NCBI GenBank assembly: GCA_028288625.1
Contig: JAQBNI010000150.1
Location: forward strand, 1 to 64,000
DNA: 64,000 bases
From: Bacteroidota bacterium
Lineage (GTDB): Bacteria > Bacteroidota > Bacteroidia > Chitinophagales > JADIYW01
Reading direction: 5' to 3'
Below the pieces are notes generated by a model. That model did not search any database, was not told where the DNA came from, and saw nothing but the letters and a program-made list of their open reading frames with translations. This document shows positions 2,338 to 31,576 of the stretch, in pieces. The position numbers and the translations under genes were made by a program. Position 1 is the stretch's first letter. Each line of letters begins with the position of its first letter.

Positions 2338-5300
2338 ATGGGAAATTTTACAAAACTTATAAGAAGCGGATTATTGCTTGCGGTGATTGCTCTTATACAA
2401 ACGCCTGCATCAGCACAGCTGCAGGTTGCCTTTGCACCGAGATTTTCTGATGCAGTGTATGGTGATTTCGTAACTATAGGCAATAATATGTTGTCTACTA
2501 CGGCTTCGGGCAACTATACGGGAACAGATGGTAATCACAATATCACTTCTGTGTTTGTAGATATAGATGCGGATAATACCACCTTTAATTCAAGCAGTGC
2601 AAATTTGGTGGATCCAATTCCGAATACAAATTGTGTATTCATTAAAAAAGCATATTTATACTGGGCTGCAGCAGATTTTGAAGAAGCCAATATCGCTAAT
2701 GAACCTGTATGGAATTATAATGATATAAAACTGATGTTGCCCGGATCTGCCACGTACACTACAATTACAGCAGACAATGTTGTGTACAGGGGAAGAACGA
2801 CCCATTTTGTAAATGACCCTTATGTATGTTTTAAAGATATTACTTCTCTCGTACAGGGATTGGGAAGTCCGTATGGAAAATACCAGGTCGCAAATGTGCG
2901 GACGAAGAAAGGGGATTTAAATCCTGATCATACAGGCAGTAACGTTGGAACATCCGGTGGATGGCAGGTTATTTTTGTTTATGAAGGAACTAAAGATCCA
3001 CAAGGGAATGCCATTTTGCCTGCTAAATATATTTCTGTATTTGATGGATATGCAAATGTTACTTCATCACAGAATAATTATAACATTACGATTTCCGGTT
3101 TTCAGACTCCTCCCGTTGGTAATATTCAGACGAAGATCATGTTTGGCGCCTTGGAAGGAGACCGCGACCTGACCGGTGATCAGTTCCAGATCAGGAATGT
3201 CGCAAATACTTTTGTAGATATGACTACGGGAAGCCTCAGACCTACGACTAATTTTTTTGATAGCAGGATCACGGCGGAAAATACGGATTATATAAACAGG
3301 AACCCCGCAAGTACAAATACGCTTGGATATGATATCGGTTATTTTACATTGAGCAATCCTGGAAATAGTATTATTACAAATAGTCAGACTTCTGCTGTTT
3401 TCCGCCTTACTTCCAACCAGGAAACTTATGGACTTTACATGGTGGGTTTTTCTACAGATGTATGGGCGCCCGATCTGTCACCGATGGTGCAGGTTTCAAG
3501 TCCCGGTACTGTTAATCCGGGGGATACCATATCTTATACATTCACTGTAAAAAATAGTGGAAATGATGATGCAAGAAATGTAGTGATCACGAGGACACTT
3601 CCTCCGGAAGTTGATCTGGTACAACCCGTTACACCGCTTCCTGCCGGTGTAACGTATTCTTATAATACAGGTACAAGAGTATTGTCATTCTTTATTCAGA
3701 ATGGATTAGTGGATGTAGGAGATGCGGCTATTAATATCTCATATAAAACGGTACTTAAGGATCAGTGCTATTTTTTAGAAACTGCATGTCCTGCAAATAT
3801 TAATGCACAAATATTGGCTACTTATACAGGCGTTCAGAATCCGAATACGCAAACTACGCTGAGTTCAAATGGGCTTACCGCTTGCGGCTTAGGAAATGAT
3901 AAGCCGAATGTTACAACTGTAAATTCGCCATCTGCTGCCGGTTGGGCAACAAATGCAGGTGCATTGAATCGCACCGTTAATTGTAACGATGCGCCGGGTT
4001 TAGCTGCAGCAGAAGCGTTATTTCCGGCAACAACAAAATGTAATTTCACTTTAAATAAAGTAACAGGTTCTTTTGCGGCGATTGCCAATTCATGTCCTGT
4101 TATTGGAACATATACCAATACGTGGACCTTTACAGATAAATGCGGAAGAACAAGCCCGGTATTCACACAAATAATTACCGTTCAGGATACGACAAAGCCT
4201 GTATTTACAAGTCAACTGCCTGCTAATGCAATAGTCAATTGTAATGCAGTGCCGACAGCTCCTACGCTTACAGCTTCAGATAATTGCACGACGGGTACAG
4301 TTACATTTAACGAAGTTCGTACAAATGGTAATTGCGTAAACAATTACGTTTTATCGAGAACATGGATTGCCAAGGATGCATGCAACAACAGCATATCATA
4401 TACGCAAACTTTAACGGTACAGGATACAACACGCCCTGTATTTGTTCAGTCACTTCCGGTGAATGCGGTCATATGCGGGAATCCCGCTCCGGCTCCGACT
4501 CTTACAGCAACTGATAATTGCGGACAGGCAACGGTTGTATTTACTGAATTGATAGATTCTGTTTCTGTTCCGGGTGTAAAAACTTACACACGCAAATGGA
4601 CAGCCACTGATGTATGTAATAACAGTACAATCTATACACAAACAATTACATCAAATGCAATTAAGGTGACAACACAAAATCCTGTGATCTGTCAGGGGCA
4701 AAGTGTAACCGTCGGAAATCACACGTATACAACATCGGGAACATTTAAAGATACTTTGCAAACAAGTAAGGGTTGCGATAGTATTGTAACTACGAATCTT
4801 ACGGTAAATCCTGTGAAGACGACAACGCAAAGTCCGGTGATCTGCCAGGGACAAAGTGTAACGGTAGGCAATCATACTTATACAACATCAGGAACATTTA
4901 AAGATACGTTGCAAACGAGTAAGGGATGTGATAGTATCATTACTACAAATCTTACAGTGAATCCTGCAATCGCAACAACACAAAATCCTGTGGTTTGCCA
5001 GGGGCAAAGTGTAACCGTCGGAAATAATATTTATACATCATCAGGAACATTTAAAGATACTTTACAAACAAGTAAAGGATGTGATAGCGTCGTTACCACA
5101 AATCTTACGGTGAATCCTGCAATCGCAACAACACAAAATCCTGTGATCTGCCAGGGAGAAAGTGTAACTGTCGGGAATCATATTTATACATCATCAGGAA
5201 CTTTTAAAGATACTTTACAAACAAGTAAGGGATGCGATAGTATTATAACTACGAATCTTACGGTGAATCCTGTAAAGACGACAACGCAAAGTCCTGTAAT

Positions 5301-8300: not shown

Positions 8301-10575
8301 TATTATTACAACAAACCTTACAGTGAATCCGGTGATCTCCAACACACAAAACCATGCTTTATGCCAGGGTGAAAGTGTAACCGTTGGGAATCATATTTAC
8401 AATTCTGCCGGTACATTCCACGACACGCTTCAAACACGAAACGGATGTGACAGCATCATAATTACAATTATTACAATCAATCCTGTAAAGACAACAACAC
8501 AGAATCCTGTGATCTGTCAGGGAGAAAGTATTACTGTCGGAAATCATAATTATACTTCATCAGGAATTTTTATAGATACGCTTCAAACGATCTCAGGCTG
8601 CGATAGTATTATTACTACAAGCCTTACAGTAAATCCTGTTAAGCGCACTGCACAAAGCCTTGTTATTTGCCAGGGCGAAAATGTGACGGTTGGAAATGCA
8701 GTTCATAGCCAAACAGGAAATTATATTGATACGCTGAATACAAGTTCAGGATGCGATAGTATTGTTTCTACAAACCTAACCGTAAATCCTGTGAAGGCAA
8801 CTTCACAAAGTCACGTCATTTGTGGAGGTGAAAGTATCAGTGTTGGGAATATAATTCACAATCAAACAGGGATATATAGAGATACGCTGCAAACCAGCAA
8901 GGGCTGTGATAGTATCATTACAACGGACCTTACGGTAAATCCGGTTAAAATGATCACACAAAGCTTTATCATTTGTCAGGGTGAAACGGTGATAGTTGGA
9001 AATAATATTCATTCGCAAACTGGAACATATGTTGATACACTGCAGACAAGTTTAGGCTGTGATAGTATTGTAACAACAAACATTAATGTGAATGCAGTGA
9101 AAACAACAGCGCAGAGCTTTGTGCTTTGTTCACGCGAAAGTTTAACTGTTGGAAATATAGTTCATAACCAGACAGGAATATATATTGATACTTTACAAAC
9201 CATCAGCGGTTGTGATAGTATCGTAACTACTGATCTTTTTGTTCGTGACGCTAATGAAACCAGACAAAGTTTTGTAGTGTGTGACGGAGAAAGTATTCTT
9301 GTCGGAAGCATACTTCATAACCTTACAGGAAATTATATCGATACGCTTCAATCGTTTACAGGTTGTGATAGTGTTTGTATGACAAACCTTTTGGTGAATG
9401 ACAGGCATGCTGTTTCACAAAGCTTTTCACTTTGCAACGGTTCCAGCATTTTAGTCGGAAATATTATTCATGATCAGACAGGAATATATATAGATACTTT
9501 AAAAAATATCAGGGGTTGCGATAGTATTATTACCACTGACCTTTTGATCAAACCTGTAAATATGGTTGATGTGCGCGCGTTTATTTGTATTGACGATACA
9601 GGTTCCGGATCATTTGTCACTGTTGGCAACCAGACATTCAGTATTCCCGGAAGTTACCAGGTTACACTTCAAAATGTTTCCGGTTGCGATAGCGTAATAA
9701 ATTTAGATCTGATTGGAAGGCTATGCGTTACTCAACCGGGATTGATCGATACGATAAGAGATACCGTGAGTGTGCGTATGATGGATACGGTTTGTTTAGG
9801 ATTGATGCCATCATTTGACGCCACAGTTACCGCGTGCGATGGAAGTACATCAGGAACAGAAGTGCATGGTACCTGGACAATCTCTACAACTCTGCCGCAT
9901 TGTTTATTGTATCACGCAGATTCGATTTTAGGAAGCGATATACTATGCCTCGTAGCCTGTGATTCTGTTGGAATAATTTATGTATGTGATAGTTCTATCG
10001 TGATCATCACAGTCATAGATTCCTTGCCGGTTGCAGAAGATGAATGCGTGGAAACAGATAAGGATACACCTATCCCGATATCTGTTTTACGAAACGACCG
10101 GGATCCGGATTTCGACAGGTTATATATTGATGGCATTGTGCAGCAACCATTATTTGGTACGGCACAAATCGATCCGGTTACACAAACGATTACCTATACA
10201 CCAAATAAAAATTTCTGTGGAGCAGATACATTCTATTACGAAGTGTGTGATCATGTTTCGGGTTGTGATGTCGGTAAAGTATGTATCAATGTCAGGTGTA
10301 AATGTCAGCTGCCTCAGGTGATCACGCCGAACAATGACGGGTTCAACGATGTACTTATGATCCCTTGTATCAATAACGTTAACAATTCACATATAGTAGT
10401 GTGGAATCGTTGGGGATTATTGGTTTTTGAAAATGATAATTACAAGAATGACTGGGATGGGAAATATAACGGCGATTATTTGCCGCCGGGTACGTACTGG
10501 TACGCTGTTGATTTTAAAGATCCGGAAACACAGGAGCAAATCAACGAAGCAAATTATTTAATGATCATTAGGTAA
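2338..10575 (+). CDS. Giant repetitive cell-surface protein: signal peptide, DUF11-like domain, HYR-like modules, 33 x 51-aa repeats, type B T9SS sorting domain (gliding motility-associated C-terminal / CHU_C)
   Basis: MGNFTKLIRSGLLLAVIALIQTPASAQ; PGDTISYTFTVKNSGNDDARNVVITRTLP; repeated VICQGESVTVGNHTYTSSGTFTDTLQTSKGCDSIVTTNLTV; C-terminal QVITPNNDGFNDVLMIPCI..IVVWNRWGLLVFENDNYKNDWDGKYNGDYLPPGTYWYAVDFKD. Confidence 0.93.
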   Translation: MGNFTKLIRSGLLLAVIALIQTPASAQLQVAFAPRFSDAVYGDFVTIGNNMLSTTASGNYTGTDGNHNITSVFVDIDADNTTFNSSSANLVDPIPNTNCVFIKKAYLYWAAADFEEANIANEPVWNYNDIKLMLPGSATYTTITADNVVYRGRTTHFVNDPYVCFKDITSLVQGLGSPYGKYQVANVRTKKGDLNPDHTGSNVGTSGGWQVIFVYEGTKDPQGNAILPAKYISVFDGYANVTSSQNNYNITISGFQTPPVGNIQTKIMFGALEGDRDLTGDQFQIRNVANTFVDMTTGSLRPTTNFFDSRITAENTDYINRNPASTNTLGYDIGYFTLSNPGNSIITNSQTSAVFRLTSNQETYGLYMVGFSTDVWAPDLSPMVQVSSPGTVNPGDTISYTFTVKNSGNDDARNVVITRTLPPEVDLVQPVTPLPAGVTYSYNTGTRVLSFFIQNGLVDVGDAAINISYKTVLKDQCYFLETACPANINAQILATYTGVQNPNTQTTLSSNGLTACGLGNDKPNVTTVNSPSAAGWATNAGALNRTVNCNDAPGLAAAEALFPATTKCNFTLNKVTGSFAAIANSCPVIGTYTNTWTFTDKCGRTSPVFTQIITVQDTTKPVFTSQLPANAIVNCNAVPTAPTLTASDNCTTGTVTFNEVRTNGNCVNNYVLSRTWIAKDACNNSISYTQTLTVQDTTRPVFVQSLPVNAVICGNPAPAPTLTATDNCGQATVVFTELIDSVSVPGVKTYTRKWTATDVCNNSTIYTQTITSNAIKVTTQNPVICQGQSVTVGNHTYTTSGTFKDTLQTSKGCDSIVTTNLTVNPVKTTTQSPVICQGQSVTVGNHTYTTSGTFKDTLQTSKGCDSIITTNLTVNPAIATTQNPVVCQGQSVTVGNNIYTSSGTFKDTLQTSKGCDSVVTTNLTVNPAIATTQNPVICQGESVTVGNHIYTSSGTFKDTLQTSKGCDSIITTNLTVNPVKTTTQSPVICQGENVTVGIHTYSSSGTFKDTLQTSKGCDSIVTTNLTVNPVKTTTQSPVICQGESVTVGNHTYTSSGTFKDTLQTSKGCDSIVTTNLTVNSVKTTTQSPVICQGQSVTVGNHTYTTSGTFKDTLQTSKGCDSIVTTNLTVNSVITTTQNPVLCQGQSVTVGNHTYTSSGTFTDTLQTSKGCDSIVTTNLTVNPVKTTTQSPVICQGESVIVGNHIYTSSGTFKDTLQTSKGCDSIVTTNLTVNPVKTTTQSPVICQGETVTVGDHTYTSAGTFKDTLQTSKGCDSIVTTNLIVNPVKTTTQSPVICQDESVTVGNHNYTSSGTFTDTLQTSKGCDSVVTTNLTVNPVKTTTLNPVICQGGHVTVGNHTYSTTGIFKDTLQTSKGCDSIITTNLTVNPNTQFIQAPHICQGESITVGTIIHNQSGIYIDTIRNSKGCDSIVFTKLTVDSVKTVTQNLQICQGESITVGSHTYSTTGTFTDTLQTNRSCDSIITTHLTVNPLKATTQNPVICQGESVTVGNHIYTSSGTFTDTLQTSKGCDSSVTTHLTVNPVKTTTQNPVICQGASVIVGNHNYTSSGTFSDTLQTSKGCDSIVTTNLTVNPVKTSTQDPVICPGETVTIGNHTHSSAGTFKDTLQTSKGCDSIVTTNLTVNPVKTSTQNPVLCQGQSVTVGNHTYNSSGTFTDTLQTSQGCDSIVTTNLMVNPVKTSTQDPVICQGESVTVGNHTYTSSGTFTDILQTSKGCDSTVTTNLTVNPVKATTQNPVICQGGSVTVGNHTYTSSGTFTDILQTSKGCDSTVTTNLTVNPVKTTTQNRVICQGETVTVGNHTYSSSGTFTDTLRTSKGCDSIVTTNISVDPFKTTTQDPVICQGESATVGNHIYASSGTFIDTLQTSKGCDSIVTTNLTVNPVKSTSQSPVICQGTSIIVGNHTYTLSGTFTDTLQTSKGCDSIVTTNLTVNPVKTITQNPVICQGASITVGNHTYTSSGTFTDTLQTSKGCDSIITTNLTVNPVISNTQNHALCQGESVTVGNHIYNSAGTFHDTLQTRNGCDSIIITIITINPVKTTTQNPVICQGESITVGNHNYTSSGIFIDTLQTISGCDSIITTSLTVNPVKRTAQSLVICQGENVTVGNAVHSQTGNYIDTLNTSSGCDSIVSTNLTVNPVKATSQSHVICGGESISVGNIIHNQTGIYRDTLQTSKGCDSIITTDLTVNPVKMITQSFIICQGETVIVGNNIHSQTGTYVDTLQTSLGCDSIVTTNINVNAVKTTAQSFVLCSRESLTVGNIVHNQTGIYIDTLQTISGCDSIVTTDLFVRDANETRQSFVVCDGESILVGSILHNLTGNYIDTLQSFTGCDSVCMTNLLVNDRHAVSQSFSLCNGSSILVGNIIHDQTGIYIDTLKNIRGCDSIITTDLLIKPVNMVDVRAFICIDDTGSGSFVTVGNQTFSIPGSYQVTLQNVSGCDSVINLDLIGRLCVTQPGLIDTIRDTVSVRMMDTVCLGLMPSFDATVTACDGSTSGTEVHGTWTISTTLPHCLLYHADSILGSDILCLVACDSVGIIYVCDSSIVIITVIDSLPVAEDECVETDKDTPIPISVLRNDRDPDFDRLYIDGIVQQPLFGTAQIDPVTQTITYTPNKNFCGADTFYYEVCDHVSGCDVGKVCINVRCKCQLPQVITPNNDGFNDVLMIPCINNVNNSHIVVWNRWGLLVFENDNYKNDWDGKYNGDYLPPGTYWYAVDFKDPETQEQINEANYLMIIR
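4678..9729 (+). repeat. 33 tandem 153-bp (51-aa) coding repeats
   Basis: Repeats aligned by hand on xPVICQGxSVTVGNHTYTSSGTFxDTLQTSKGCDSIVTTNLTVNPVKTTTQ; the first 32 are exactly 51 aa (repeat 33 begins at 9574 = 4678 + 32 x 153). Confidence 0.93.
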
Positions 10576-26664: not shown

Positions 26665-26738
26665 GGTCGGTTGGCCGAGAGGCTAGGCAGAGCTCTGCAA
26701 AAGCTCGTACGGCGGTTCGAATCCGCCATCGACCTCCA
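26665..26738 (+). tRNA. tRNA-Cys (anticodon GCA), CCA encoded
   Basis: Acceptor GGTCGGT/ATCGACC, anticodon arm GAGCT-CTGCAAA-AGCTC, T arm GGCGG-TTCGAAT-CCGCC, discriminator T then CCA. Confidence 0.93.
26722..26736 (+). repeat. attL core TCCGCCATCGACCTC (within the tRNA 3' end)
   Basis: Exact 15/15 match to 31562-31576. Confidence 0.9.
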
Positions 26739-26751
26739 CCTTTGGTGATAG

Positions 26752-26785
26752 CCCCTTGAATGTCAACATATTCAAGGGGTTTGTT
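26752..26785 (+). terminator. Terminator just inside the left end of the element
   Basis: CCCCTTGAAT-N8-ATTCAAGGGG followed by a T-rich tract. Confidence 0.8.
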
Positions 26786-26860
26786 TTTTACAGCGTATGA
26801 ATTAGCGTAATAATCGGTATCGTATTAATAAAAAAGAGGCATTTCTGCCTCTTATTAGTT

Positions 26861-27052
26861 TCATTCCATTTTGAGTTGTTTCATAATGTGTGAAACGAGA
26901 TATCGCTTGCGATTGCTTAAGCGAAATGATGGCTTAATCGTACCGAAAGCTTCAAGACGTAAAAGTGTGTTTTCACTAATCTGAAGCATCTGCATGACTT
27001 GTTTAGCCGTGAGGATTTTATCCTCTTCCTTTTTCTGTTCCATGAATTCCAT
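26861..27052 (-). CDS. Excisionase/MerR-like HTH protein
   Basis: DKILTAKQVMQMLQISENTLLRLEAFGTIKPSFRLSNRKRYLVSHIMKQL. Confidence 0.8.
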   Translation of the reverse strand: MEFMEQKKEEDKILTAKQVMQMLQISENTLLRLEAFGTIKPSFRLSNRKRYLVSHIMKQLKME

Positions 27053-27308
27053 GTATTGTTATCTCACATTGACTGTGATTATACCTAAACTACGATTTAT
27101 TCCAATACAGTGCAACCTTAATTAAAGGTGCAATACATTTTTATTATTATTCCAACAGCATAGACTTTACTTGTTCCCGAAAATTCATTTTATTAAGCCA
27201 ATAGATAGACCCATTATGTCTTTTTCATTTTGGTGCAATATTTATAAAGTAAGAAACATAACACGGAACCGCCCCCACGTGGTTCTCCTATTTATAAACC
27301 AGAAGTAA

Positions 27309-27899
27309 ATGAGAAATGCTGAATTATTAGACAAATTAAATAGCGGAAAGATGAAGAAATTCTTTAAGCTAAATCAATTGAAAGAGATAACAGGTTTACA
27401 AGACAGAGCCTTAAAATACCGTATGCTGTATGTTAAGAATAAATATATTGACATACCCAGCAGATTGAAAAAATTGGGACGAAGTTGGCAAATACATTAT
27501 TCAATAGTGTACGAGTTCTTTCCTAAGAGAAAAAGAATTGAAACAACCGTATATACATACCCGTGGGCGAACATTGTAAGTTGGAATCCAGAAAACAACT
27601 ACGACGCTGCGTACCACGAAGAATTGATACAACAGATAAAGAAGCAACTGCCGAATAATAAAATCCTTTATGCAATTGAACTGGACAGCCGACAAGTTAA
27701 GCATGTACACTTTATAACGGATGCGCAGAAGGTTGACTTAGATAAAGCTGTGAATGATACGTTAGATTTATTCATGTCACATAAAATCGCAAATAAGGTG
27801 AGAAAAGAATACAAGCTCGAAATAAATAAGATTTACCACAAGTATAATGTGGTGGATTATCTCCGCAAAGCTCCAGTAGCAAGCGGAATCATAAATTAA
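27309..27899 (+). CDS. N-terminal HTH plus possible HUH/Rep-like domain protein
   Basis: KLNQLKEITGLQDRALKYRMLYVKNKYI..LGRSWQIHYSIVYEF (HTH-like); ILYAIELDSRQVKHVHFITDA (HxH) and YNVVDYLRK (YxxK). Confidence 0.5.
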   Translation: MRNAELLDKLNSGKMKKFFKLNQLKEITGLQDRALKYRMLYVKNKYIDIPSRLKKLGRSWQIHYSIVYEFFPKRKRIETTVYTYPWANIVSWNPENNYDAAYHEELIQQIKKQLPNNKILYAIELDSRQVKHVHFITDAQKVDLDKAVNDTLDLFMSHKIANKVRKEYKLEINKIYHKYNVVDYLRKAPVASGIIN

Positions 27900-27906
27900 G
27901 ACAGAT

Positions 27907-28125
27907 ATGAAAAAAGAAATTATTAACCTTGACAACATGCCAATGACGAAAGCGTTGCTGATTGATTACATCATGTTCATGTACGGTGAAGCGTATGATA
28001 TAAGCCATGAGTATTTGGTCATGGAATACCTAATGCTTAAGCGAGAAAATCGTTTGCATGAATTGTTCCAACAGGAATTACTTGACAACACAGGTGCCCT
28101 GGAAGAGGACTTTATTTGGCGGTAA
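27907..28125 (+). CDS. Hypothetical protein in the element
   Basis: ORF 7 bp downstream of the preceding gene, probable operon. Confidence 0.6.
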   Translation: MKKEIINLDNMPMTKALLIDYIMFMYGEAYDISHEYLVMEYLMLKRENRLHELFQQELLDNTGALEEDFIWR

Positions 28126-28180
28126 CATCGTTACGCAACATACATACGAAAACTTGCCTTAGTTTAATGAAACCTTCCAT

Positions 28181-28291
28181 ATGGCGTTTAAATTTTCTGG
28201 GAAAATTACAAGTACCGAAAAGGACGTTATAGCTTCCGTTAATGTTCACAAAAGGTTGGTTGGAATTGCCGAATTCATACAAGAATCATAA
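28181..28291 (+). CDS. Possible 36-aa small ORF
   Basis: MAFKFSGKITSTEKDVIASVNVHKRLVGIAEFIQES; position only. Confidence 0.2.
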   Translation: MAFKFSGKITSTEKDVIASVNVHKRLVGIAEFIQES

Positions 28292-28327
28292 AATAATATC
28301 ATATGCTGATTAAAAATTTCCCATAAA

Positions 28328-28489
28328 ATGACCATAGAAGAAATAGGTGCAAAGATACAATTGAAGCAAGCCCAAATACAGGCTGAGTCTGACCAACATA
28401 GAAAGCAAGTATTATCAAAAGAGTTACATGTATTACAACTGCGTAAGGAGATAGAAACTATAAAGCAGCAGATTAGTAGATTACCATGA
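28328..28489 (+). CDS. Possible 53-aa coiled-coil protein, missing from the supplied ORF track
   Basis: MTIEEIGAKIQLKQAQIQAESDQHRKQVLSKELHVLQLRKEIETIKQQISRLP; heptad-like pattern. Confidence 0.45.
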   Translation: MTIEEIGAKIQLKQAQIQAESDQHRKQVLSKELHVLQLRKEIETIKQQISRLP

Positions 28490-28939
28490 TGTTTTACCTA
28501 CTCCTTTACACGTTGGACACCTTTCTACTTCATCCTTATTTTTTTCATTTTTGGATAGAAGTCGTCCTGTACCTTGGCATACTGTACAATCAAATCGTGA
28601 ATCTACTGGTTGTGAGTCTTCTGGTTGTAAATCTAATGGTGAATCTACATTAATTAGATTGTTAGCAATATTTGACAAACTCTGAAATATTACTATAAAA
28701 AAAATTATTTCGGTAATCGCCATAACAATATTTATTACAGAATAATAATCTTTAAGCTTATCGGGTTTAATGTTTAAAATCTCATCAACGGTCATCAGGG
28801 TGGGATAAGTATCGCTTAAAAACAACTGGGGATTTTCACGCAATAAAGCAAAGATTATGGCAAAGATAATTTGTATAATTAGGACGTTACGAAGAGTCAT
28901 AACTGAATTACCAGCTACTTTAATTCTATTACTATTCAT
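28481..28939 (-). CDS. Membrane protein with C-terminal DnaJ-like CxxCxGxG zinc-finger half
   Basis: Two hydrophobic segments (VLIIQIIFAIIFALL; VINIVMAITEIIFFIVIF) then CTVCQGTGRLLS..VERCPTCKGVG. Confidence 0.75.
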   Translation of the reverse strand: MNSNRIKVAGNSVMTLRNVLIIQIIFAIIFALLRENPQLFLSDTYPTLMTVDEILNIKPDKLKDYYSVINIVMAITEIIFFIVIFQSLSNIANNLINVDSPLDLQPEDSQPVDSRFDCTVCQGTGRLLSKNEKNKDEVERCPTCKGVGKTSW

Positions 28940-28942
28940 AAC

Positions 28943-29620
28943 TTAATAAGTTTGTTTTCCAGTACCCTTGCATGATGGACAAACTTTATATCCATCATAA
29001 CTGTTTACAAAACCTGTTCCATTACACATCTCACATTTCGGATAATTTGCTTGATGTCTTTCAACAGTAGTCGGTGATGCGACACCGCAATAATTACAGA
29101 ATCCATTTACATAATGTCCAAAACCACACGAGACACATTTTTCTCCCGAATATTGGTCTACCTTATCAAGTAATTTATTCACTTCTGCCGTATGCTTCCT
29201 GCCACATTCTGGACTACAAACATAACATTGATAGGGATAGCTACAAGGTTTCCATATGCCTTCAGATGCTTCTTCATAACCATTACCTTTAAATTTACGA
29301 CCACAAATACTACATGTATTTTCTTTTACCTCTTCTGTAACAGTTTTGGAGCTTTCAGTTTGACTATTATTCATTTGGTTATAATCAGAAGTCTTTTCGC
29401 TATTCGGTACAGCGACAGGGATTATAGCTATAATAATAAGTGAAATAAGAAATACAATTACGCTTCCTACTCCTATGCGCAGATAAGACTTTTGGCTTAT
29501 GGAGAGAACAGACGTGTGAACATTATTTCCTTTCTTAAAAGAGCTATGGGCGTTATAACCAGTCATTCCAAATAAGCTAAATGCCATGGATATAAAAACG
29601 ATGCAAATGAAAATAACCAT
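28943..29620 (-). CDS. Membrane protein with zinc ribbons and C-terminal CxxCxGxG repeats
   Basis: Two hydrophobic segments; CSICGRKF.., CVSCGFGHYVNGFCNYCG, CEMCNGTGFVNSYDGYKVCPSCKGTG. Confidence 0.75.
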   Translation of the reverse strand: MVIFICIVFISMAFSLFGMTGYNAHSSFKKGNNVHTSVLSISQKSYLRIGVGSVIVFLISLIIIAIIPVAVPNSEKTSDYNQMNNSQTESSKTVTEEVKENTCSICGRKFKGNGYEEASEGIWKPCSYPYQCYVCSPECGRKHTAEVNKLLDKVDQYSGEKCVSCGFGHYVNGFCNYCGVASPTTVERHQANYPKCEMCNGTGFVNSYDGYKVCPSCKGTGKQTY

Positions 29621-29736
29621 AATAATACATTACTGATAAGCTAATATAATAAATTTCTAAAGTGAAGATAATAAAATCGGAGAAAACTCCGCACGCTGAA
29701 TAAAGATTTCAAGATTCCGATGTGGATTTTTGCTGA

Positions 29737-29988
29737 ATGCAAAGCCAGTTGGACAAGGTTAAGGATGAAGTCACAGAGCGAATTCACAAACTCTTTATGA
29801 CTAAGTTTGGCGGTAATAAATTACAATTTGCCAAAGCCTCTGGGTGCAATGAAAAAACAATCCGATTGTTATTTGATGAGGGGCAGGGTATGACGTTGAA
29901 TTTGTTATTCAAGTTGGCTTTTGCGTTGGATGTAACACCGTCAGAATTATTGGACGGGTTATCACTTAAAACCTCTTCCAAAAAGTAG
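29737..29988 (+). CDS. XRE-family HTH regulator
   Basis: KLQFAKASGCNEKTIRLLFDEGQGMTLNLLFKLAFALDVTPSELLDGL. Confidence 0.85.
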   Translation: MQSQLDKVKDEVTERIHKLFMTKFGGNKLQFAKASGCNEKTIRLLFDEGQGMTLNLLFKLAFALDVTPSELLDGLSLKTSSKK

Positions 29989-29992
29989 TTTT

Positions 29993-31414
29993 CTATATTG
30001 CAACCATATATACAGGCGGTTGAACCACCTTGTAAACATCCGATTGAACACCAGCAACTGCATTCCTAAACATCTCCGCATTGTCAATAATTGTAGAGTT
30101 GTTATAAACATCCTTCATTTCCTTCTTTCGCACCGATGGGTGCGTTATGTTATCAATTACTTGGTTGGATATTCCATGTTGAATAAGATTTGTATAAAAC
30201 GATTTACGTCCCGTATGAGAATGGACTAACTCGTGAAATGGCTGATAGGTTACAGTAGGGGTATCGTTACCATAATACCATGTCTCTAATTTAACTACCT
30301 CTTCAAACTCCAAGTGTTTACACAGCTTCTTTAATTGGCGGTTCAGCGGTTGACCTTTAGGAAAGGTTGGGAATCTCCAACCGTTTTCCGAAAGAATGCG
30401 GTTTACGGGTTCTAATATTGGAATGCAGACCTTCACTTCTCTATTAACCTTTGATACTTTCCTGACCTTTGAAATGATACCTGTAAACGACACAGACCTA
30501 CCATTAAATTGCTCGGTTTGCAATGAGTGTAATTCATACAGGTCGCCATATCGTAATCCAGTAAGAGCAGAAAGGATTATAAAGTTTCTTGCATTATTGA
30601 ATTCGGAAGAATGAGCCACATCCGCATTCAGGATTTTGGTTAACCGTTCCTCGGTGTAGAAAATTTCATTAGCACTTTTCATTTCCTCGATATTCAATCC
30701 ATCCTTATGAATATTAAGTGATACATTAATGTTGGCTTCCGATGCCAGACGCAAGAACATAAGGAATATGTTCGACAGCTTCGCCATGTAATTTACAGTA
30801 TAACCGTTTAAGTCTTCCTTCTTTTTGTCATTATTCACCACAGTAAAGAATGACCAATACTTCTTTTCATCAAGGTTCTTAAATGTAAGAGCAAGCTTTG
30901 CAATAGACTCATATTTTTTTAATAAGTTGAGGAAGACACTGTAGTTTTTAATTGTACCATCCGTAACATGTTTACGGGCTGTAATTGGCAATTTCTGAAA
31001 TTCTTTTATTTTGCCGTCAATGAAATTGACAATAGTTATGTCCTTTACCATCTTTTCCTTGCGCCCCAGTTTTACCTCAATGATGTCTTTGAGTTGTTGC
31101 GGAGAAGGATTTTGTTCATGTTCTTCCCGATATGCCGTTAACGCTTGGTAAGAAATCTTCTGAATCCTGTCCAATTGATTATTCAAATCGGCTCCGAACT
31201 GACTGACATACTTCTTAACTGTTCGGTATGTGATAACATCCCAGTATTGTGGTTGAATGCGCTGTTGTGTACTGATTCGCATTGGAATGTATTGCATTCT
31301 ATCGCTTGTAGCATTGTATTCACTATAACCATAGTTAAAGTTGAAGTAGATAAGCTTATCGCCGTTCTTTGATTTGTTAGATTCAAGGTTGAAGTTGTGT
31401 GTAGCTGTTTTCAT
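29993..31414 (-). CDS. Tyrosine-type site-specific recombinase (integrase)
   Basis: LTGLRYGDLYELH (Arg I), HSHTGRKSFYTNLIQHGI (HxxR), THPSVRKKEMKDVYNN (His, Tyr). Confidence 0.9.
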   Translation of the reverse strand: MKTATHNFNLESNKSKNGDKLIYFNFNYGYSEYNATSDRMQYIPMRISTQQRIQPQYWDVITYRTVKKYVSQFGADLNNQLDRIQKISYQALTAYREEHEQNPSPQQLKDIIEVKLGRKEKMVKDITIVNFIDGKIKEFQKLPITARKHVTDGTIKNYSVFLNLLKKYESIAKLALTFKNLDEKKYWSFFTVVNNDKKKEDLNGYTVNYMAKLSNIFLMFLRLASEANINVSLNIHKDGLNIEEMKSANEIFYTEERLTKILNADVAHSSEFNNARNFIILSALTGLRYGDLYELHSLQTEQFNGRSVSFTGIISKVRKVSKVNREVKVCIPILEPVNRILSENGWRFPTFPKGQPLNRQLKKLCKHLEFEEVVKLETWYYGNDTPTVTYQPFHELVHSHTGRKSFYTNLIQHGISNQVIDNITHPSVRKKEMKDVYNNSTIIDNAEMFRNAVAGVQSDVYKVVQPPVYMVAI

Positions 31415-31561
31415 ACGTATTAATTAACGTATTAAAACTACTAAATGATATGCAATAATGCAAGGTAAGTTGAGGATATATTTTCTGGGTCTCCCAGGTT
31501 TTATTGGGGTTTTGAGGCATGTTGCAGTTAGTTGAAGTGAATGGTGGTAATAGGGTTATAG

Positions 31562-31576
31562 TCCGCCATCGACCTC
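31562..31576 (+). repeat. attR core TCCGCCATCGACCTC
   Basis: Exact copy of 26722-26736. Confidence 0.9.

Follow-up and report, generated by a model that had tools for sequence, protein, structure and literature searches.

Within the window analysed here, a 64,000-nucleotide stretch of a Bacteroidota bacterium genome (contig JAQBNI010000150.1, positions 1 to 64,000), a 4,840-bp segment beside a tRNA-Cys gene is probably a small integrative element of the integrative-plasmid or integrative and mobilizable element (IME) type, which would excise, replicate by rolling circle and depend on a helper for transfer. As read from the sequence, the element is inserted precisely at the 3' end of the tRNA-Cys gene and carries an intact tyrosine integrase gene, an Xis-like gene and a gene for a replication initiator-type (Rep) endonuclease of the HUH superfamily. 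The original prediction for this DNA had proposed integration at tRNA-Cys by a tyrosine recombinase accompanied by an excisionase-like helix-turn-helix (HTH) protein, and the limits, attachment (att) repeats and gene content given below support that proposal.

Insertion at tRNA-Cys and gene content

26737..31576 (.): 4,840-bp element, one att copy counted; defined by empty sites in four congeners
26665..26738 (+): tRNA-Cys (GCA), the integration target, still intact; ARAGORN, Rfam tRNA 54.7 bits
26722..26736 (+): attL core TCCGCCATCGACCTC, in the tRNA 3' end; repeat search
31562..31576 (+): attR core, second TCCGCCATCGACCTC copy, perfect 15-bp match

The predicted 15-bp direct repeats are present and perfect, and the left copy lies in the tRNA 3' end. 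TCCGCCATCGACCTC is the sole match of at least 11 bp between the tRNA region and the next 7 kb to the right, and chance does not account for a 15-bp match that coincides precisely with the 3' end of a tRNA. An uninterrupted site, which had been proposed as a check, was found in four congeners (G008, G003, G002 and G006), in which folB (the dihydroneopterin aldolase gene), tRNA-Cys and a type IX secretion system (T9SS)/FG-GAP gene follow one another directly; the last of these is the gene to the right of the element in the window, and in the congeners a short terminator-like stretch alone separates it from the tRNA. Because these congeners show the empty site, the segment is an insertion, and in the window it begins precisely after GACCTC. 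Two further congeners (G005 and G007) have another right neighbour, with no integrase among the open reading frames listed there. The G+C content of the element is slightly low (35.7%, compared with 38.7% elsewhere) and lies inside the window's own range.

The CA that follows the att core (window 26722-26738) comes from the element, and the tRNA-Cys gene is 74 nt long versus 72 nt in most congeners; the restored gene therefore has an encoded CCA end, which is absent from most congeners' copies.

26861..27052 (-): Xis-like HTH_17/MerR-type protein, 63 aa; Pfam HTH_17 E 7.6e-5 (below cut-off), PHROG excisionases
27309..27899 (+): HUH Rep, 196 aa, N-terminal HTH and nuclease domain; motifs, AlphaFold2 (AF2), Foldseek
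27907..28125 (+): 72-aa partner protein; homologues near rep in relatives
28328..28489 (+): putative coiled-coil protein, 53 aa; 45-52 aa counterparts after rep in relatives
28481..28939 (-): 152-aa cargo protein, two hydrophobic stretches, C-terminal CxxCxGxG zinc-ribbon-like tail
28943..29620 (-): 225-aa Cys-rich cargo protein, two hydrophobic stretches, same type of tail
29737..29988 (+): XRE-type regulator, 83 aa, divergent from the cargo pair; Pfam HTH_26 at cut-off
29993..31414 (-): tyrosine integrase, 473 aa; Pfam Phage_integrase and Arm-DNA-bind_5 below cut-off, PHROG 1 E 1.2e-7

The gene list of the original prediction (integrase, Xis-like HTH protein, XRE regulator, Rep-like protein and two Cys-rich membrane proteins) proved to be correct in content and position; two small conserved genes (27907-28125 and 28328-28489) and a motif upstream of rep are added to it here. 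The catalytic R-HxxR-H-Y set of the integrase, read from the sequence, is complete (TGLR within TGLRYGD, HTGR, TH and VY), and in phage and plasmid records the integrase gave only 21-26% matches to Bacteroidota integrases.

The element occurs as a single copy in the host genome (3.7 Mb in 161 contigs) and in this single genome, its contents are unique in the family, and its leader hairpin upstream of rep is weaker than in some relatives, as might be expected of a stranded, immobile genomic island in which the cargo is kept while the mobility genes decay. We regard such a state as quite improbable, since the att repeats are perfect, int, xis and rep are all open with their catalytic residues retained, and the empty sites in congeners imply insertion within the history of the genus.

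Small size, the Int/Xis/XRE layout and the tRNA site also resemble those of phage satellites, for which a helper phage would replicate and package the circle, and anti-phage genes, frequent in satellites (PMC11389934), are present in some relatives. Several results oppose this reading: searches of the eight element genes with Pfam, PHROG and NCBIfam recognised none for capsid, terminase, primase, conjugation or partition functions, and those with PHROG and Pfam no packaging or capsid-size gene; pattern scans of IMG/VR returned one remote integrase locus (L003) and no relative of Rep or of the 225-aa Cys-rich protein; tblastn of Rep (from the window and from G305) against phage and plasmid records gave no match; and the TerL nuclease domain was not found in the host genome. 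The satellite guess of the original prediction is thus not borne out, and we regard it as highly improbable. Its other suggestion, an IME-like element parasitising another element, fares better in its IME-like half, while parasitism of a helper is something we only infer.

The Rep protein and the sites upstream of its gene

What had been called a possible Rep-like protein can be identified, from its motifs and predicted fold, as an HTH domain joined to an HUH endonuclease. No match above cut-off was obtained for it in Pfam, PHROGs or NCBIfam; Pfam REP_ORF2-G2P aligned over the right region with an E value of 0.24. The protein contains E124, the metal motif HVHF at 132-135 (H132-x-H134) and the catalytic motif YLRK at 184-187 (Y184-x-x-K187), and E124, H132, H134, Y184 and K187 are among the 36 invariant columns of the seven full-length Reps. 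Homologues are around 40% identical to the window Rep. One (44%) came from a genome of the same order, and a scan of 84,980 genomes with the HTH-stretch pattern ITGLxxRxLKYR gave five further loci, confirmed by profile, one of which was partial at first and completed later. Weak profile matches elsewhere (E 1e-4 to 1e-2) were set aside, as most of them fell within far longer proteins or in frames interrupted by stops. None of the 12 other genomes of the family carries rep (1/13 including the host), and two of 399 sampled order genomes do, host included; this sporadic occurrence counts for a mobile element.

The AF2 model built from seven sequences (mean predicted local distance difference test, pLDDT, 84.5) has N-terminal HTH-type helices followed by a nuclease domain in the order strand-helix-strand-strand-helix-strand-helix, which points to a Rep-type nuclease fold alongside the metal motif and the YxxK. 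The best PDB matches of the model in Foldseek are wheat dwarf virus Rep and Sulfolobus islandicus rod-shaped virus 1 (SIRV1) ORF119; further matches listed are other geminivirus Reps, the adeno-associated virus (AAV) Rep origin-binding domain (OBD), the NS1 nuclease, circovirus Rep and IS200/IS608-type transposases, and the best matches in BFVD include CRESS-type (circular Rep-encoding single-stranded DNA) Reps and parvovirus nonstructural proteins. An earlier fold from two sequences (pLDDT 70), with generic ferredoxin-like matches, is superseded by this model.

The protein might instead act as a DNA-binding regulator only, or as a dedicated relaxase with no replication role. The HTH domain of Rep does occur alone (67 aa) with the 72-aa partner beside bacteriophage exclusion (BREX) operons, where nuclease activity is impossible, and Rep-like relaxases are known (PMC7563843). 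Against this, HxH and YxxK are invariant in 7/7 full-length homologues, and because selection for regulation alone would not keep these motifs, the regulator-only version is disfavoured; on balance, a role restricted in either way appears unlikely.

27127..27134 (+): conserved motif GGTGCAAT, candidate Rep or regulator binding site; second copy at 27232-27239
27264..27292 (+): candidate double-strand origin or leader hairpin, GGAACC...GGTTCTCCT; weak in the window copy

GGTGCAAT is the only 8-mer shared by the 260 bp upstream of 7/7 rep genes, in which it lies at -221 to -160; in a shuffle control none of 1000 sets (five lineages) shared any 8-mer, and on this sequence comparison it is a real conserved site. 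A second GTGCA, direct or inverted, occurs near -75 in 5/7 of these upstream regions. In relatives a small inverted repeat followed by CTTGTCCT or a near variant lies between GTGCA and the start codon, and the candidate origin in the window was placed at 27264-27292 because its position corresponds to that of CTTGTCCT downstream of the inverted repeat. As a guess, the interval between GTGCA and the rep start is a reasonable place for a rolling-circle origin. The leader hairpin was rejected as a proven origin, as the folds are significant in one or two relatives only and not in the window.

Proposed mechanism and comparison with known elements

In the mechanism that we favour, Int and Xis would recombine attL with attR into a 4.84-kb circle, as expected from knowledge of their families; the HTH domain would guide Rep to the sites upstream of rep (GGTGCAAT), with nicking possibly at the hairpin/TCCT leader; Rep would nick one strand through Tyr184 and so start rolling-circle replication with host helicase and polymerase; and a helper would pass the circle on, which would then re-integrate at tRNA-Cys. 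The cargo would consist of the two zinc-ribbon membrane proteins, placed under the XRE regulator, and possibly serves in defence by analogy with the cargo of some relatives. The most speculative step is that Rep might double as a relaxase, letting a resident conjugative element mobilise the circle.

Several observations weigh against this mechanism. The fold of the leader hairpin in the window is not significant (z = -1.08), the Foldseek E-values against the PDB are weak (around 2e-3) with modest TM-scores, so that the Rep assignment rests on motifs and fold together, and the whole case for a circle and its replication is built on static sequence. The host genome yielded no PF19044 conjugation ATPase and thus no sign of a resident helper; this absence argues neither way. 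For an integrative element speak independent elements of comparable layout at other tRNA genes (tRNA-Met in L074 and tRNA-Ala in L073, described below).

Actinomycete integrative and conjugative elements (AICEs) such as pSAM2 combine a tRNA site, Int, Xis, a rolling-circle Rep and a regulator with a TraB-type translocase. The window element has the first five of these; unlike AICEs it is much smaller, and no FtsK-like or TraB-type translocase was recognised among its eight genes with Pfam. The Bacteroides mobilizable elements NBU1 and Tn5520 encode recognised Mob proteins. They resemble the window element in host phylum (Bacteroidota), tyrosine integrase and small size, and differ from it in that no Mob protein was recognised in the latter. 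Both are mentioned in PMC5704250.

Non-canonical streptococcal IMEs encode relaxases related to rolling-circle replication (RCR) initiators, of the Rep_trans/MobT, Rep_2 and Viral_Rep families (PMC5704250, PMC7563843). The window element is similar in its small size, in a site-specific integrase that targets the 3' end of a gene, in an initiator of the rolling-circle type and in the lack of a transfer apparatus; it differs in its Bacteroidia hosts, in a Rep that those Pfam families do not recognise, in the absence of a recognised TcpA-type coupling protein and in a relaxase role that is putative. With regard to what defines an IME, the element has its own integration and excision genes with att repeats, no family of a mating-pair apparatus was recognised among its eight genes, and, of the relaxase and/or oriT expected of an IME, an HUH nuclease is present as a putative relaxase. 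Since the streptococcal IMEs rely on RCR initiators for relaxase function (PMC5704250, PMC7563843), conjugal mobilisation is, by analogy, our first choice for the mode of transfer. For the same reason (PMC7563843), the earlier statement that capsid, conjugation and MOB genes are lacking holds for the first two kinds and needs softening for the third, as Rep is an HUH endonuclease.

Integrative plasmids with viral-like Reps are known from the pCRESS groups, which are site-specifically integrated (PMC6668415). They share with the window element an HUH Rep with YxxK, site-specific integration and the lack of structural genes; pCRESS Reps have a helicase domain, whereas the window Rep (196 aa) consists of HTH and nuclease only. 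In the same study, integrated elements of the Bacteroidetes form an uncharacterised HUH cluster, which might be the window Rep family. The 10K genomic island of Riemerella anatipestifer (PMC6764341) is likewise tRNA-located, belongs to the Flavobacteriales and was shown to excise; unlike the window element, it has an Arg-tRNA site, a 53-bp repeat and an IntN1-like integrase, with no Rep in the part of its description consulted. Charybdis elements (PMC12324425), which are of similar size, were rejected as counterparts because they are archaeal and lack a Rep, as were SE elements (PMC9345347), which have two integrases and no HUH protein.

Related elements and their cargo

Six other Rep loci were found, all in Bacteroidia; two are fully delimited tRNA elements, two lie beside serine integrases at tRNA genes, and L075 and L077 are truncated at contig ends.

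L074: Flavobacteriales metagenome-assembled genome; 8,098 bp between 15-bp repeats, one in a tRNA-Met 3' end
L073: Flavobacterium chungbukense; 5,814 bp between 20-bp repeats at tRNA-Ala
L036 (in G305): Rep next to a serine integrase, the gene of which extends into tRNA-Met; AbiC-like protein nearby
L076: serine integrase beside tRNA-Leu; 12-bp possible att at 8551

L074 is similar to the window element in its integrase (39% over 460 aa), Xis (53%), 72-aa protein (41%) and Rep (40%), and its cargo is a type ISP/IIG restriction-modification enzyme. L076 matches L074 in Rep (79% identical), resolvase (87%) and restriction enzyme (78%); as the two share core and cargo while their integrases and targets are unrelated, they provide direct evidence of integrase exchange. 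The tyrosine integrase of L073 has no significant similarity to that of the window, and two of its cargo proteins (206 and 390 aa, at 3195-5189) have no Pfam or PADLOC match. A search for a second att at L036 gave no clear copy. Homologues of the 72-aa protein stand immediately downstream of rep in four relatives. On these sequence comparisons the core around Rep is modular: small partner genes recur, integrases are swapped and some of the cargo is for defence.

Three genomes from the F. chungbukense family sample (loci L082, L083 and L084) encode the HTH domain of Rep as a stand-alone 67-aa protein, and in each of them its neighbour is homologous to the 72-aa protein. In L082 (7655-14113) and L083 (7978-14423) the pair precedes brxA-type genes and is accompanied by an XRE gene, a 268-aa protein of unknown family and brxA/brxB-type BREX genes, with a serine integrase around 40% identical to that of G305 nearby. 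Even where the nuclease is missing, therefore, the HTH/72-aa pair moves together with defence genes; element regulation and replication control are both possible roles for it.

Neither the 152-aa nor the 225-aa cargo protein of the window matched a PADLOC model at E 0.1, and no homologue of the 225-aa protein was found among 298 further genomes of the order or, by tblastn, in plasmid records. Because the pair diverges from the XRE gene and occupies a slot that holds restriction or abortive-infection genes in some relatives, a role in defence or exclusion is plausible by analogy, and no more.

The HTH-HUH Rep family and the modular element set around it look new with respect to the family libraries and the open-licence literature. 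The kind of element is not, as elements that have an HUH Rep and integrate site-specifically were known before (PMC6668415). A bolder proposal, rather improbable as a whole, is that this undescribed Rep family defines modular Bacteroidia elements in which a Rep/partner core with tyrosine or serine integrases ferries defence genes between tRNA sites, with Rep doubling as relaxase and the zinc-ribbon membrane pair forming a new defence system. If the favoured reading is right, these elements would be a Bacteroidota counterpart, with a very small gene set, of the streptococcal replication-initiator IMEs. Since restriction-modification and abortive-infection genes occupy the cargo slot of related elements, the core genes would also offer a handle for new defence genes, starting with the two membrane proteins here. 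As Rep is invisible to current family libraries, annotation would miss such elements.

A small serine resolvase (206-214 aa, 49-87% identical) is encoded near rep in L074 (5604-6248), L076 (6498-7118) and L036 (6598-7218) and is missing in the window; it is perhaps a multimer resolution system for a replicating circle. In L074 a second, unrelated tyrosine integrase (404 aa, 8567-9781) lies just past the same tRNA-Met, which suggests a neighbouring or tandem element.

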